Shown here: positions 6,502 to 47,987 of the stretch, one piece after another
How positions within the stretch are numbered: position 1 is the first letter of the stretch
Layout of the letters: the number at the start of each line of letters is the position of its first letter
From: Actinomycetota bacterium
GTDB lineage: Bacteria > Actinomycetota > Geothermincolia > Geothermincolales > RBG-13-55-18
DNA: 50,902 nucleotides
NCBI GenBank assembly: GCA_013178005.1
Contig: JABLXL010000024.1
Span: forward strand, 1 to 50,902
Direction of reading: 5' to 3'
Notes under the pieces: generated by a model
Database searches by the model: none
What the model was told of the DNA's origin: nothing
What the model saw: only the letters and a program-made list of their open reading frames with translations
Position numbers and translations under genes: made by a program

Positions 6502-7566
6502 TCACTTCCTGGCGAGAGCGATCTCCAGGTAACCCTCCTTCTCCTCCAGACCGCCCAGCGCGAAGGAGGCTCCCTCGAAGACCTCGAGCATGCCCCAGAT
6601 GCGCCCCGCGAGTATGGGGGTCGAGTAGGGGTTCACGACTCCCAGTCGGCAGCCCTCATCCCCGCGCTTGAACCGCGCCGGCCTTCCCCAGCTGCGCAGG
6701 GGGAACTTCAGCAGCTCCGCGTCCAGGGAAGTCTTGTCCTTGAAGGACGCGTAATAATCGCGGGCATAGTCGCACGATATCTCCGTGATTATCTCGTCCA
6801 CCTCGCCTCCGAGCTCCTCGTGCAACACCCTCACCACCGCGGCGATACCGTTGGTGTTGTGCAGGATGAAACGCTTGCCGCTCAGCCTTTCCAGGACGAG
6901 GGCCTCTTCGGCGTTCCAGTCGAACTGGCGAGAGATCTCCACGGGCACCCCGCACTCCGCGCAGTGTTCGTAGCGCAGATCGCCTTCCTCCGTGAAAGGT
7001 ATCCCCAGCTCCACCTCCTGTTCGATACGCTCTTCCAGCTCAGGTTCACCCTCCACCGCCGTTACCTCGATGTAATCGCGCCCCCCTTCCTCCTGCCAGT
7101 GCGGCTCTCCCCTTCTGCCCTCCATGGCCTCGAAGACCCCCGCCCAGTCCCCCATGGCCATGGGCTCGCTGTAGGTGTTACCGGTCTCCAGCACCAGGAG
7201 CTCCCCCTCCCGGTATTCCCTGACGGAAGCGAGGCCAAGCCCCCAGTTGGCGCAGAAGCGCGAGATCAAACCGTAAACCTCCATGGGAGTTGCCTCCCTT
7301 CCCGCCGCCCGCAGGTTGCGGGCCAGGGACCCGGCGTAACGCTTCCCGTCCTTGCGCTTGCCCTCCACCACCAGGCGGGTGATATCGAATCCTATGCGCG
7401 CGGAAAGAGCGGGGAAAAGGGCGTTGAGCTCGTCGACGTCGTAGAGGGTGCCCCTGATATGCGGTGGGTAAGCCGCGGTTATGACCCCGTTGGCGTGCCA
7501 TACGTTGCCTTTCCCTATGCCCCTGGGAAGGCCACAGGTGCCGCAGGTCTTCTTCCCCTCCGCCAT
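6502..7566 (-). CDS. Protein A: uncharacterised tandem zinc-ribbon/'NPY' domain protein
   Basis: A 354-residue soluble protein built of two related halves. Half 1 (~7-175) starts with CGTCGLP, then W-x-x-NG-x-IT, a helix ending GFDITRLVVEG, and later GNTYSEPMAMGDW. Half 2 (~205-354) starts CAECGVP, has an LGGEVDEIITE segment, and ends NPYSTPILAGRIWGMLEVFEG. The same order recurs twice in protein B at 40651-41736, so this is a family with an internally duplicated module. The fold order vaguely recalls V4R-type ligand-binding domains, but that is a guess. No signal peptide or membrane segment is visible. ATG 7566 follows AAAGGAGGGG. It stands alone as a transcription unit; function unknown. Confidence 0.85.
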   Translation of the reverse strand: MAEGKKTCGTCGLPRGIGKGNVWHANGVITAAYPPHIRGTLYDVDELNALFPALSARIGFDITRLVVEGKRKDGKRYAGSLARNLRAAGREATPMEVYGLISRFCANWGLGLASVREYREGELLVLETGNTYSEPMAMGDWAGVFEAMEGRRGEPHWQEEGGRDYIEVTAVEGEPELEERIEQEVELGIPFTEEGDLRYEHCAECGVPVEISRQFDWNAEEALVLERLSGKRFILHNTNGIAAVVRVLHEELGGEVDEIITEISCDYARDYYASFKDKTSLDAELLKFPLRSWGRPARFKRGDEGCRLGVVNPYSTPILAGRIWGMLEVFEGASFALGGLEEKEGYLEIALARK

Positions 7567-7648
7567 CCTAAAACACCCCTCCTTTTGATGTTTTCTTTTT
7601 CGCCCAAAGAGGTCTTCCGACCTTCCCTACATCGGGGTCAGGACTTCG

Positions 7649-19790: not shown

Positions 19791-20870
19791 TTAGTAATGC
19801 AATGCTGCGTTTAAAAAAGGGGCAGCTGCGAACCGTGGACGCAAGCCCGCAGTTTCGACTGTGAAGAAGCGATATCGTCAAGCGCGTACAGCAGGTGGTC
19901 CTCGAGTTCGTCTAAGTCATCGGGTCTACCGTTGGCCAGGGCTCCCTTCATCTGTGACTATACGCCTTCGTCGGGGTTGAGCTCAGGGGCATAGGGAGGA
20001 AGGCACTCCAGGTGCAGACGAGGGCGGGAGCGCTCCAGGTCCTTCACCACCTTGGCCCGGTGGGTGTTGCTGTTGTCCCAGGTGACGATGAGGTGCCCAG
20101 GGACTGCCCGCAAGAGCCCGCACAGGAACCCCGCCGCGCCATCTGCGCGTATATCTTTTCGAGAGAGCTTGAAATAGAGAGACAGGTGTTTGCGTGCGGG
20201 GCTTACCGTAATCGCGGAGATGACGCTCAGGCGGCCGTGCGAGAAACGATGGACGGTTTTGTCGGGGTCAAGCCTCTGGGCGCCCAGGTGCGCCTGACCG
20301 AGGGGATGAGGAGAAAGCCCGATTCGTCTACGAAGGCTATGTGGGCGTGGAGCTTCTGGGCGGTTTTTTTACCCTGGGCCAATCATTCTTGACCCAGTCG
20401 GCTATTCTAGCCTCGTCGCGCTGCGACGATCTTCGCTCGGGCTTCTGGTGGCTCCAGCCCATCTGGTGAAGGAGCCTGCCGATGTGGTCGCGGTGGTAGC
20501 GTACACCGAATTTCTGCTCTATGACCTCGGCGACGCGGGCGGTCGTCCACAGGTCGGTGCGGTATCCTGCCTTGATCGGCCCCTCAAGCAGGATCTTCTC
20601 CAGGGCGCGCTTCTGCTTATCGGTCAGTTTGGGGGGCCTGCCCGAGGCCGTCTTGACCTTCAGCGCGTCACTCCCGCCACTGTCACGCATGTTCCTCCAG
20701 CGCATGACGGAAGAAGGGGCGCAGCCGAGCAGTCTGGCTACTTCGTTTAAGGACCGGTCCTCGTCGAGAAGTTCCAAAGCCCTGTTGCGCCGGTATTCCA
20801 ATACTTCCGCAGACCCTGCGACTCGCATGATAGACACCACCTCCTGGTATCTATCACATTGCATTACTTA
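19791..20870 (-). mobile_element. IS630-type insertion sequence, degenerate
   Basis: Short inverted ends AGTAATGCAATG (19793-19804) and CATTGCATTACT (20857-20868) bracket a single transposase gene. Preceding and following TA dinucleotides fit the TA target of IS630/Tc1-mariner elements. The element borders the AT-rich ATPase/TOPRIM island on one side only. The transposase is inactive, so the copy cannot move by itself. Confidence 0.75.
19811..20828 (-). pseudogene. IS630-family DDE transposase, inactivated
   Basis: The N-terminal part (HTH, then GYRTDLWTTARVAEVIE and MGWSHQKPERR) runs to a stop at 20337. A run of seven A's (20364-20370 on the plus strand as T's) allows a -1 shift into a frame encoding FVDESGF, RTWAPRG and so on, a translational shift known in this IS family. 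Two further lesions look like true damage: a second frame change near 20250-20270, before FSHGRLSVISAITVSP, and TAG replacing the Trp expected after NPDEGV (19958-19960). The catalytic residues D...D (VTWDNSNTHRA)...E remain recognisable. The reading frame after the nonsense codon continues 49 codons to 19811. Start ATG 20828 follows GGAGG. Confidence 0.85.
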
Positions 20871-40650: not shown

Positions 40651-41736
40651 TTGCGTATATTCAAGTGTCCACGGTGCGGGTTCCCCTTCATGTTCTCGCG
40701 CATCATAAGGTGGAACGATAACGGCACCATCACCGAACGCATGATGCCCGACCTGCGCGCCGTGCTCCTCGAGGCCGACTTGTTCAACACCCTCTTCGCC
40801 CGCATCGAGGAGAAGATGGGCATCTCCATATCGCACCTCGTTTTCGAAGCGCAGAGAAACGCGGCCAAGGAAGTCATAGACGGCGTGCTCAATCGCTTCC
40901 CCTTCTCCCTCGCCCGGCTCGGCCCGAACCGGAGGGTGGTGGTGCGGGTTTTCTGCGCCGTGGCCGTGGTGACCGGACAGTCTTACGCCAGGGCCGTCAG
41001 CTACCGGCCGGGGAGAGACGGAGAGGCGATCATACGCAATCCCTACAACCGGGAGCTCATGGCGGCCATAGTGCTCGGGGCCTTCGAGAGCCTGGAGCGC
41101 AAGCCCTTCGAGCACACCTGGGCGCAGATCGACGGGGATGACTGCATTGTGATCACGGCCTCCGACCAGAAGCCGGAGTTCTCGGATCGCCTCGCGGTTC
41201 ACATGCCTCCCCTGAAGGCCGGCAACCTCTCCTTCCCGCGCTGCCGCGTGTGCGGCGTCCCCAGGGAGCTATCCTACCTGGAATGGCGGGAGGACGAGGG
41301 CATAATCGTGGACACCCGACGCGACGTTCGCATGGCCTTCCTGGACGGTTTTACCCCGACAACCGTTTTCCGGGAACTGGAAAAGGAGCTAGGCGAGGAC
41401 ATCTACCCCCTGGTAATCACGGCCCAGAAAGAAGCCACGCACCGCCACCTGGATGAGCTGAAGCTGGTTACCCGGGAGGACAGGATGTCACCCGGAGGCA
41501 ACCGCTCCATCTACGAGAAGATCCTCGCTTCCCTGCCCCTCTTCGGCCAGGGAAACCCCGTATCCATGAGCATGGAAGGAAACCGCCTCGAGGTTACGGT
41601 GGAGAACCCTTACAACGAGCACCTCCTGGCCGGGCACATGGCGGCTATATATGAGGCGGTGGAGGGCACGGAGTCGGAGGTGGAGTGGAGGAAGCCGGAC
41701 CCTTTGACCGTCGTCTTCACCGTGCGGCCCGGTTAG
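40651..41736 (+). CDS. Protein B: second uncharacterised tandem zinc-ribbon/'NPY' domain protein
   Basis: About 361 residues, equal in size and plan to protein A at 6502. Half 1: CPRCGFP, RWNDNGTIT, GISISHLVFEAQRNA and NPYNRELMAA. Half 2: CRVCGVP, LEWREDEGIIV, LGEDIYPLVITAQK and NPYNEHLLAG, then YEAVEGTESEVEW. So each half has a CxxCG zinc-ribbon, a Trp plus NG/EG turn, a helical strand ending before a Glu/Gln-rich region and the NPY[NS]xxLxAG motif. There is no recognised domain. TTG 40651 is preferred (GGAAAGGA 7-8 bases upstream); an earlier in-frame start at 40537 lacks a site and gives a longer low-complexity leader. Divergent from the flavoprotein gene. Confidence 0.83.
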   Translation: MRIFKCPRCGFPFMFSRIIRWNDNGTITERMMPDLRAVLLEADLFNTLFARIEEKMGISISHLVFEAQRNAAKEVIDGVLNRFPFSLARLGPNRRVVVRVFCAVAVVTGQSYARAVSYRPGRDGEAIIRNPYNRELMAAIVLGAFESLERKPFEHTWAQIDGDDCIVITASDQKPEFSDRLAVHMPPLKAGNLSFPRCRVCGVPRELSYLEWREDEGIIVDTRRDVRMAFLDGFTPTTVFRELEKELGEDIYPLVITAQKEATHRHLDELKLVTREDRMSPGGNRSIYEKILASLPLFGQGNPVSMSMEGNRLEVTVENPYNEHLLAGHMAAIYEAVEGTESEVEWRKPDPLTVVFTVRPG

Positions 41737-44536: not shown

Positions 44537-46213
44537 ATGCAGGAATACGACGTGGTGGTCATCGGCGCCGGCTTCGGCGGGCCGGTGGCGGCCAAGAAAT
44601 GCGCGGAGGCGGGTTTCCGCACCCTCATGCTGGAGAGGTCCGCGAAGGTGGGGGAGAAGGTCATCTCCGGCCTCACCATCCCCTTCTACGGCTTCCTCTT
44701 CGGGCCGGCCTTCATCCGGGACGGCAATCCCCCCATAGAGAGGCCGGTGGACGGCATCGTCAACTACATCATCAAGGACATCGAGGCGGGCGACATGGAG
44801 ATCGACGACTCCCTGCGCATCCCCAAGCCCCTCTCCCCCATCCTCGCCTTCGGCTACAACGCCTACTGCCAGCCCTTCTGCCAGTGGGAGGCGGAGAAAG
44901 CGGTGGAGTCCGGGGTGGAGCTGCGCACCTCTACCACGGTGGTCGAGCTCCTCAGGGAGGACGGGCGCGTGGTGGGGGTGAGGACGGACAAGGGCGAGGA
45001 GATAAGGGCGCGGCTGGTCATAGACGGCGAGGGCTCCCAGGGCCTGCTGGCGGTGGGGGCGGGGATCCGCGAGAAGTACCCGCCGGAGGTAATCTCCCTG
45101 GCCGACGTCTACGACTACGAGATGGCCAAGGAGGACGTGGACGAGATCTTCGGCTATACCCTGCGCTTCTGCTGGGGGTGGGACGAGCAGAAGATCGCGC
45201 CGCCCCTGGGGCACGGCAACGGCCTCATGGTGTGGCCCTACCGCGAGAGCGTCCACTTCTGCCAGGACCAGTGCCTGGCCATGGACGACGGCAAGGTCCC
45301 CAACCTGCGCAAGCTCTTCGAGGAGTACCACCGCAACCTCACCTCACACCTGCCCTGGTGGAAGGAGGAGATCGAGCCCCGGGCGAGGCTGCGGGCGAGG
45401 GTGTTCGAGAACTTTGAGATCTTCGTGGGCCTGAACGAGAGGCTGCGCGCCATGCCCAACCACGCCGACGGCATCATCCTCATCGGCGACGCCGCCGGGC
45501 TGGAGAGCACCGAGTTGTGCGATGGCGTGCCCGCGGCCTGGTTCTCGGCGGACATCGCCGCCGACGTGGCCATCGAGGCGCTGCGGGCGGGAGACGTCTC
45601 CGCCTCCTTCCTCTCCCGCTACGACGAGCGGGTGCGCGCCCACCCCATCATCCAGTGGTCCATCACCGCCCCCCACCGCTATAACCTGCGCTTCGCCCAG
45701 GAGCACCACAGCCTGGAGGAGCTGCGCCGCTACGTGCACGACGGCTGGGGGCTGGGCGGGTTCGCCTTCATGAGCACGGCGCTGGTGAGGATGATCCTCC
45801 AGGCGGTCCGGGAGGACCCCGGGATCATCGCCTCCTGGCTGCGCATGTTCCCACGCTATTACTACAACTGGCTCCACGAGAGGTACGACTACAGCGGGGG
45901 CAAGGGCGAGCCCCCGCGCGACCCGTCACGCGAGCCCAGGGCGGCCCAGGCGGTGGTGCGCGGAGGGCTGCGGCTGATGGACGCCGCCCTCGCCCTGGGC
46001 GCCCCCCTGGTGAGGGCGGCGGCGGGCTTGCTCGAGCCCGCGGCGCGTTTCGCCAACCCTGCCATGAAGCTGCTGCTCCCCGGCATTGAGGCGCTGATGC
46101 GGGGATGGAAGAAAGTGGAACCGGCGTTCGTTCCGCTGAGCGACAGGATCATCCGTTTCGTGGGCCGGGCGGACCCGGCCACATTCGCGGCACCTGAGAG
46201 GGGAGGTCGTTGA
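44537..46213 (+). CDS. FixC-like FAD-dependent oxidoreductase (ETF-QO/FixC family)
   Basis: A 558-residue flavoprotein. The FAD motif VVIGAGFGGPVAA (residues ~8-20) and a second FAD motif ILIGDAAGLESTELCDGVPAAW (~313-335) resemble FixC and the electron-transfer-flavoprotein:quinone oxidoreductases. It lacks the C-terminal 4Fe-4S domain of ETF-QO; that is supplied by the ferredoxin encoded next, as in FixC/FixX. A C-terminal extension (~430-558) with amphipathic helices is longer than FixC. It probably oxidises a substrate and passes electrons to a ferredoxin or quinone. ATG 44537 follows GGGAGGGGG. Confidence 0.87.
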   Translation: MQEYDVVVIGAGFGGPVAAKKCAEAGFRTLMLERSAKVGEKVISGLTIPFYGFLFGPAFIRDGNPPIERPVDGIVNYIIKDIEAGDMEIDDSLRIPKPLSPILAFGYNAYCQPFCQWEAEKAVESGVELRTSTTVVELLREDGRVVGVRTDKGEEIRARLVIDGEGSQGLLAVGAGIREKYPPEVISLADVYDYEMAKEDVDEIFGYTLRFCWGWDEQKIAPPLGHGNGLMVWPYRESVHFCQDQCLAMDDGKVPNLRKLFEEYHRNLTSHLPWWKEEIEPRARLRARVFENFEIFVGLNERLRAMPNHADGIILIGDAAGLESTELCDGVPAAWFSADIAADVAIEALRAGDVSASFLSRYDERVRAHPIIQWSITAPHRYNLRFAQEHHSLEELRRYVHDGWGLGGFAFMSTALVRMILQAVREDPGIIASWLRMFPRYYYNWLHERYDYSGGKGEPPRDPSREPRAAQAVVRGGLRLMDAALALGAPLVRAAAGLLEPAARFANPAMKLLLPGIEALMRGWKKVEPAFVPLSDRIIRFVGRADPATFAAPERGGR

Positions 46214-46214
46214 G

Positions 46215-46484
46215 ATGGCCAGGACCTTCGAGGAGTTCCCGGGCGTGGAATGGGTGGAAGGCGCGGGCTTGTTCATCCGGGTCATCGAGGAGAGGTGCGA
46301 CGGTTGCGCCAACTGCGTCAAGGTCTGCCTGGCGGACTGCTACGAGATCTCGGGAAAGAAGGCGCGGATCCGGGACCTGGACAAGTGCATGGAGTGCGCC
46401 TCCTGCTGGTACGTCTGCCCCCGGGACGCCATCGAGTTCTCCTGGCCGCCGGGGGGGACGGGGTTCCGCACCGACTGGGGATAG
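46215..46484 (+). CDS. FixX-like ferredoxin
   Basis: An 89-residue 2[4Fe-4S] ferredoxin with CDGCANCVKVC (residues ~28-38) and CMECASCWYVCPRDAIEF (~58-75). The layout and the C-terminal EFSWPPGGTGFRTDWG match FixX, the electron-acceptor subunit for FixC. Its ATG comes one base after the FixC stop (TGAGATG), so the genes are translationally coupled. It lies between two FixC-like genes and could serve either. The electron source may be FixAB/ETF encoded elsewhere; none is in the window. Confidence 0.9.
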   Translation: MARTFEEFPGVEWVEGAGLFIRVIEERCDGCANCVKVCLADCYEISGKKARIRDLDKCMECASCWYVCPRDAIEFSWPPGGTGFRTDWG

Positions 46485-46617
46485 ATCCATGGTGGTTTGC
46501 CGAGCGGTGACCCCTCTCCCACCGAGGCGGGGAGCGACCCGCGCGCATGGAGAACCGGTGGTGAGATGATATGGCGTGCTTCCGGAGCGGGCGCGGCGCG
46601 CGCGTGCAAGGGGGATG

Positions 46618-47987
46618 ATGGCGGTGTCCTTCGACGAGACGTTCGACGTGGTCGTGGTCGGCGCCGGCTTCGGCGGGCCGGTGGCCGCGAGGAGGTGCGC
46701 CGAGGCGGGCTTGAAGACCCTCATGCTCGAGAGGGCGCGGGTCCCAGGGGAGAAGGTCGTCTCGGGCCTGGTCATACCCATCTACGGTTTCCTCTACGGA
46801 CCGGAGTTCATCCGCAAGGGCAATCCCCCCATCGAGAGGCCCATCTGCGGGGTGGTCAACCGCCTGGTCAAGGACGGCGAGATCCTCTTCACCGACCGCT
46901 CTTTGCGCGTCCCCAAGCCGTTGGCCCTGGGCTACGCCGCCTACTGCAAGCCCTTCTGCACCTGGCTGGCCGACCGCGCCGTGGAGGTGGGGCCGAGCTG
47001 AGGACCTCGACCACCGCCGTGGACGTCGTCCAGGAGGGTGGCTCGGTGAGGGGGGTGGTGACCGACTCAGGCGCCAGGATCGGGGCCCGGGTGGTCATCG
47101 ACGCCGGGGGCACGCAGAACCAGCTCGCCATCAAGGCGGGCATCAGGGAGAGGTTCACGGCGGAGTCCATCGAGCTCTACATGATCTGGGATCACGAGAT
47201 GGCCAGGCGAGACGTGGACGAGGTCTTCGGCCACACCATGGAGTTCTTCCACGCCTTCCCCGAGGAGGGAATCGGGGCGCCGCTAGGCTACGGCTCCACC
47301 CTCTATATCTTCACCTACCGCGACAGCATCCACCCCGGGCTGGGGCAGTTCCTGGTCACCCAGGGGGACGTCCCCAACCTGGCCAAGCTCCTGCCGCGCT
47401 ATTTCGAGACCTTCACCGGCAGGCTGGAGCGCTGGAAAAAGGACATCGCCCCCCGGGCGAGGCTGCGCGCGGTGATGTGGGACGTCTGCCCCATCTACGC
47501 CGGCCTCATCCCGGAGACGCGCCGCATGCCCTTCCACGGAGACGGCATGCTCATCACCGGCGACGCCGCGGGCTTCGAGGCCTCCGCCTTCGGCGACGGC
47601 GTCCCCAACGCCTGGTTCTCAGCGGACATCGCTGCCGGGGTGGCCATCGAGGCGGTGAGAGCCGGCGATGCCTCCGCCTCTTTCCTCGCCAGGTACGAGA
47701 GGCGGGTGCGCGCCCACCCCTTCATCATCCACACCATCTCCGACCGGCGCAGGTGGAACATGCGCGACCTGCTCGCGGGCAGGGACATGCGGGAGTTCAA
47801 GGCGAAGGTGCGGGACCACTGGGGCATCGGGGCCTTCCGTTACCGCAACATGGGGGGGCCGGTGCTCAAGGCCTCTCTCGCCGCGCTCAAGGAGCGCCCT
47901 GCGGTGGCGGCGGAGTGGGCGGAGATGTTCCGCCGCTACTTCCGCAACTGGGAGGAGAACCGCTTCGACCCGCTTTCCGCCTCCTGA
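46618..47987 (+). pseudogene. Second FixC-like FAD oxidoreductase, one-base frameshift
   Basis: The first part (46618-46998) encodes VVVVGAGFGGPVAARRCAE and stops at TGA 46999-47001. In the next frame the remainder starts with GAELRTSTTAVDVV and includes ITGDAAGFEASAFGDGVPNAW and ends at 47987. The two fit together if one G is inserted in the GGGG run at 46989-46992. The total would be about 457 residues, similar in domains to the 44537 gene but without its C-terminal extension. A homopolymer sequencing error or a true inactivating deletion are both possible. ATG 46618 or GTG 46624 are plausible starts after AAGGGGG. Confidence 0.85.

Follow-up and report, generated by a model that had tools for sequence, protein, structure and literature searches.

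Proteins A and B, two paralogs encoded on the 50,902-nucleotide contig of an Actinomycetota bacterium of the class Geothermincolia that was analyzed here (the window), belong to a family that is restricted to this class when set against 271 other Actinomycetota genomes, is heavily expanded and is new within a known superfamily. The doubled architecture and the cysteine motif are new; the fold of the superfamily, which serves to sense oily or aromatic small molecules, is known. We hold with moderate confidence that A and B are class-specific soluble fused V4R-like pseudo-dimers with a predicted shared zinc, which would act in trans as sensors, carriers or regulators dealing with hydrophobic ligands. 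Our best guess for their role is that of cytosolic fused pseudo-dimer sensors or carriers of hydrophobic metabolites.

Both open reading frames (ORFs) proposed in the initial annotation are present, A on the minus and B on the plus strand. Protein A (354 aa; positions 6502 to 7566, minus strand) matches the family profile with an E value of 7.9e-102, and a strong Shine-Dalgarno sequence (AAAGGAGG) precedes its ATG, in a region read from the sequence as AAAGGAGGGG (approximately 7573 to 7586, minus strand). Its first repeat (approximately 7024 to 7566, minus strand; repeat profile E 1.1e-30) carries a CGTCG knuckle, a Trp and NTYSEPMAMG, so that NTY indeed stands there instead of NPY as previously read; the second one (approximately 6505 to 6984, minus strand; E 8.9e-20) carries a CAECG knuckle, a Trp and NPYSTPILAG. 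Protein B (361 aa; 40651 to 41736, plus strand) starts with a TTG, a codon also used by its orthologs in L027 and L034. Its repeats are located at 40651 to 41199 (CPRCG knuckle, W21, NPYNRELMAA) and 41212 to 41733 (CRVCG knuckle, W212, NPYNEHLLAG), both on the plus strand, and match the repeat profiles with E values of 1.6e-67 and 6.3e-63, respectively, these profiles having been seeded with the same two repeats.

The initial annotation had described A and B as paralogs, each an internal duplication, and this is fully borne out. Aligned over 351 aa, the two proteins are 26% identical (E 9e-33); additional half-against-half alignments have E values of 3e-8 and 1e-7. Profiles of the first and second halves built from 39 members match each other with a probability of 99.8% (E 1e-29, 159 columns). 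Furthermore, 34 of 34 half-repeats share one alignment frame, in which C6, C9, P12, G25, G57 and G109 are invariant and G10, W21, I27, R36, E53, N130 and E146 nearly so. Because of these alignments and profiles and of the common frame, the internal duplication is, at the level of sequence, far beyond chance. The 157 complete members sampled are double without exception, and no single-repeat protein was found among them; likewise, all repeat-level matches in the genome of the window lie within double ORFs or decayed tails. The NPYxxLxAG motif does not hold as the signature of the family: the N of NPY is found in 52% of the members in repeat 1 and in 94% in repeat 2, so NPY occurs frequently without being universal, and the first half of protein B reads LMAA and not LxAG. 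Conservation is higher at a G/A-x3-G/A pair and a Glu on the helix that bears NPY. Invariance over the 157 members is strongest at Gly, Cys, Pro, Trp and Arg residues and at a single Glu located in a helix.

Each repeat very probably belongs to the V4R/Bet3 superfamily by its fold, without being a member of PF02830 by threshold, since structural matches, a profile match and a conserved helix pair all point there. The AlphaFold model of full-length B (18 sequences; pLDDT 89.2, pTM 0.86) predicts for each repeat helices followed by a beta-beta-alpha-beta-beta unit, and the five helices and the twisted four-stranded antiparallel sheet of V4R/Bet3 proteins are found according to both AlphaFold and Foldseek. 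The top PDB structures retrieved by Foldseek with full-length B were PoxR (5frx; E 7.8e-4, probability 1.0), YslB, BET3, MopR and H-NOX; this E value is modest and, since each match covers a single repeat, the query TM reaches only about 0.33. One repeat modeled alone (pLDDT 82.7) matched PoxR, DmpR and MopR with E values from 1.5e-6 to 2.8e-4 and query TM of 0.59-0.68. The repeat-2 profile matched the V4R proteins of the class itself with a probability of 94% (E 1.4e-7, 136 columns) and XylR_N with a probability of 42%, the G-x-I...RM segment being in register. The repeat-1 profile gave weaker values (62% to V4R and a negligible 2.6 to XylR_N). In 120 control comparisons with unrelated neighbor families, the best probability was 31%. 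The resemblance to V4R-type ligand-binding domains, which had initially been noted as slight, is thus supported by structures and profiles alike. Helix 5 of V4R/Bet3 proteins carries a Gly-x3-Gly pair (PMC2253512), and helix 2 carries another. In the 157 members, the helix-5 pair is kept as small-x3-small, with G, A or S at positions 139 and 143 (97% and 100%) and at positions 328 and 332 (97% and 99%); at the helix-2 positions, a small residue, rarely Gly, is found in about 80% (position 67) and about 62% (position 71).

Searches of Pfam, NCBIfam, PHROGs, PADLOC and PDB sequences gave no convincing match, at best zinc-finger fragments below cut-off. In particular, zf-Mss51 and other zinc-ribbon Pfam families weakly match the CxxCG-x-P knuckle in 22 of 39 members (best E 5e-6), and protein B scores 25.8 bits, under the curated cut-off of 27 bits. 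PF02830 is not among the 25 Pfam families listed for these 39 members and has no match in the genome of the window, despite its 23 family members. XylR_N was not found in the relatives; as the control genomes also lack it, this absence is not proven. A strong match to a characterized family, which would have spoken against the initial annotation, did not appear at the sequence level.

Each repeat has one CxxCG knuckle, and the whole protein thus has four conserved cysteines. All four are kept in 155 of the 157 members, the remaining two being one without one Cys and one cut by a contig end. The sole complete member of the 157 that lacks a knuckle Cys (L110, 6386-7552) reads CPEGG in place of CxxCG. 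Twelve members contain exactly four Cys. Outside the knuckles, the 157 members have no conserved Cys, and a conserved His is absent throughout: no His column exceeds 48% of the members and none is invariant. With the four knuckle cysteines as the only conserved Cys or His positions, one Zn(Cys)4 site common to both repeats is the simplest and likely reading of these sequences. A zinc ribbon in each repeat, as first proposed, does not fit: each has one CxxC knuckle, and two knuckles within one domain were not found. The V4R zinc of MopR/DmpR-type sensors is held by three Cys and one Glu, and a His, together with a Trp, anchors the phenol hydroxyl in aromatic sensors (PMC10715001, PMC7264223). 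Neither these zinc ligands nor the phenol-anchoring His were found in the 157 members, and the pocket may therefore differ or be lost. The proximal heme His of H-NOX has no counterpart either, as no His is conserved in these members.

The genome of the window (3.6 Mb) contains 26 stretches matching the family: 23 intact two-repeat ORFs, in addition to split matches and decayed tails. Each of the 31 genomes sampled from the class has the family, with 2-53 matches per genome, counts that can include fragments. In a draw of Actinomycetota genomes, all 25 members of the class were positive and none of the 271 other genomes was, a result reproduced with a single-repeat profile. A scan of the genomes of 84,980 species with peptide patterns of protein B, which reaches only close relatives, retrieved 15 loci, all from Actinomycetota MAGs including Candidatus Solincola, a genus assigned to Candidatus Geothermincolia by NCBI. 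In a tree of the 157 members, supported clades span several taxonomic families; therefore, part of the expansion is old. The family proposed in the initial annotation is undescribed, no database match being convincing, but it is not a pair of paralogs: at least 23 intact members occur in this genome alone and the family is present class-wide. Truncated C-terminal pieces lying directly downstream of intact copies (L055, 6039-6305; L054, 7763-7882) are remnants of tandem duplication and decay. Two members, found in two relatives (L141, 6016-7112; L155, 6904-8013), are split by a frame change or an in-frame stop, and may be assembly errors or pseudogenes. Five others (L044, 5745-6869; L089, 3554-4717; L103, 12027-13229; L109, 277-1437; L095, 1681-2820) form a sub-group with a C-terminal tail of 23-31 aa that mostly ends in LPF. 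This sub-group adjoins a response regulator and a large ORF that are kept across genera, the clearest stable neighborhood seen.

The family genes are mostly monocistronic, with variable neighbors. An upstream gene of the same orientation lies 60 bp or less away from 16 of 142 of them, versus a background of 27% for other genes, and 29 of 142 have another family member as neighbor. No neighbor cluster is enriched beyond orthologous synteny, no operon partner is shared and no consistent pathway emerges from the neighboring genes. Response-regulator genes account for 9 of 130 immediate versus 3 of 130 distant neighbors; otherwise, the Pfam classes are similar. Protein A itself remains 64-74% identical in eight other genomes of its taxonomic family (45-50% in the order) and its neighbors change between genera. 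A methyl-accepting chemotaxis protein (MCP) and a nitronate monooxygenase were considered as partners of A and rejected: of 11 loci, 5 have the monooxygenase close to A, and in others it is replaced. A duplicated MCP-monooxygenase block shared by A and its nearest in-genome paralog was also discarded: the MCPs are 30% alike and the monooxygenase is absent from the second locus. Elsewhere in the window, IS630-type transposase-like fragments in several frames (pieces of the DDE region and a helix-turn-helix N-terminus) were recognized by eye at 19811-20828. Two genes encoding FAD-dependent oxidoreductases with similar N-termini, the second split into two calls, lie at 44537-47987, with a small ferredoxin-like ORF (46215-46484) between them. 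Related oxidoreductase/ferredoxin-like clusters occur near other family members in L033, L034 and L102.

These data can be brought together in the following scheme. Two V4R/XylR_N-superfamily domains would be arranged head to tail, one chain thereby equaling the homodimer of PoxR, MopR or DmpR, and each repeat would have gained an N-terminal CxxCG knuckle. The four cysteines probably hold one structural zinc that clamps both halves. In the DmpR dimer, the N-terminal segments of the two protomers interlock (PMC7264223). The matching segment of the family sits right behind each knuckle, which makes a zinc-clamped fused pseudo-dimer plausible by analogy. Small hydrophobic or aromatic metabolites, which would differ between paralogs, are the probable ligands of the V4R pocket. 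With neither a fused output domain nor a shared operon, the proteins probably work in trans, as independent sensors, carriers or regulators. A role as scaffold or adaptor would also fit the large copy number. More tentatively, and with less confidence than we place in the scheme itself, this entire uncultivated class could rely on these proteins as its principal set of sensors for small molecules (or of binders for hydrophobic metabolites): fused V4R pseudo-dimers with a split Zn(Cys)4 site, present as tens of ligand-tuned paralogs per genome and acting in trans via a partner.

Among the rival explanations, DNA-binding regulators come first, followed by pure carriers, enzymes and selfish elements. 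The members could be zinc-dependent transcription regulators in which the knuckles contact DNA or RNA and the V4R-like domains serve as ligand switches. V4R/XylR_N domains are commonly found within regulators (PMC2253512, PMC7264223), the family genes are monocistronic with their own upstream regions, and the somewhat higher frequency of response-regulator genes among immediate neighbors also agrees with this reading. However, this excess is small and partly results from shared synteny, domain searches detected no helix-turn-helix or other known DNA-binding domain in the family, and no conserved operator-like sequence was seen upstream of the protein B orthologs. We therefore consider direct binding to nucleic acid as possible but rather unlikely. 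A slightly lower probability is given to carriers or chaperones of hydrophobic intermediates (acyl, polyketide-like, isoprenoid or aromatic CoA derivatives) without any signaling function, comparable to V4R/Bet3 proteins with a lipid pocket. Bet3-type structures, one of them with bound palmitate, are among the fold matches, and genes encoding acyl-CoA dehydrogenases, SDR, thiolases and acyltransferases are located nearby. Such genes are, however, equally common far away (4 of 130 near and 6 of 130 far for acyl-CoA dehydrogenases), and the lack of any neighbor cluster beyond orthologous synteny also argues against this reading.

Enzymes of a new family, with catalytic zinc knuckles or a catalytic Asn/Glu, are quite improbable: the Cys are invariant and Arg36/Arg227, Asn319 and Glu146/Glu335 are highly conserved, but polar residues are conserved at few, scattered positions, no catalytic-looking invariant constellation appears among the 157 members, no characterized enzyme matches and the fold matches are binding proteins. 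Selfish or phage/defense-related repeats spread by mobile elements are hardly credible and already largely refuted, since the high and variable copy number and the local tandem copies have to be set against the lack of any PHROG or PADLOC match, a plasmid search that found no match, the universal presence in the class and the conservation of the A ortholog across genera.

Sensors or carriers built as fused pseudo-dimers thus remain our preferred reading. Every sampled genome of the class carries the family, in up to 53 copies, and yet Pfam and NCBIfam do not see it. It adds an architecture of fused dimers and a shifted metal site to the V4R/Bet3 superfamily, the prokaryotic ancestor that has been proposed for the vesicle-tethering subunit of eukaryotic TRAPP. 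Moreover, it supplies a ready-made set of candidate sensors of hydrophobic metabolites from bacteria of thermal and subsurface habitats, and it leads to a clear prediction on structure, namely one zinc between the two repeats.

Compared with known systems, the likeness to zf-Mss51 and other zinc-ribbon families consists of the CxxCG-x-P knuckle, present once per repeat. According to Foldseek, TRAPP Bet3, YslB and H-NOX belong to the same superfamily; unlike H-NOX and Bet3, the family has no heme His or other conserved Cys, and no heme or vesicle context was seen. Stand-alone V4R proteins (COG1719, e.g., Methanocaldococcus MJ1460 and BchJ) share with the family the fold and the helix-5 pair of small residues, in agreement with the profile match to the V4R proteins of the class, but have a single domain and another zinc site, whereas the family is double and below Pfam V4R detection. 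V4R genes separate from the family were retrieved from 13 searched genomes, roughly one in three within the class, but not from that of the window; the ordinary V4R proteins of the class are often encoded as adjacent pairs (L064-L088). The best fold match, for the whole protein as for one repeat, is with the sigma-54 activators PoxR, MopR, DmpR and XylR (XylR_N + V4R; PF06505/PF02830). These aromatic sensors function as dimers that interlock via the N-terminal region (PMC7264223). They have a V4R zinc site made of three Cys and a Glu, and DmpR anchors phenol by His100; the family has an N-terminal CxxC knuckle instead and no conserved His. It carries two repeats per chain without the AAA+ or HTH output of these activators. 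The N-terminal G-x-I....RM segment (XylR_N) and the C-terminal half (V4R) of these sensors align with the family in the same order.
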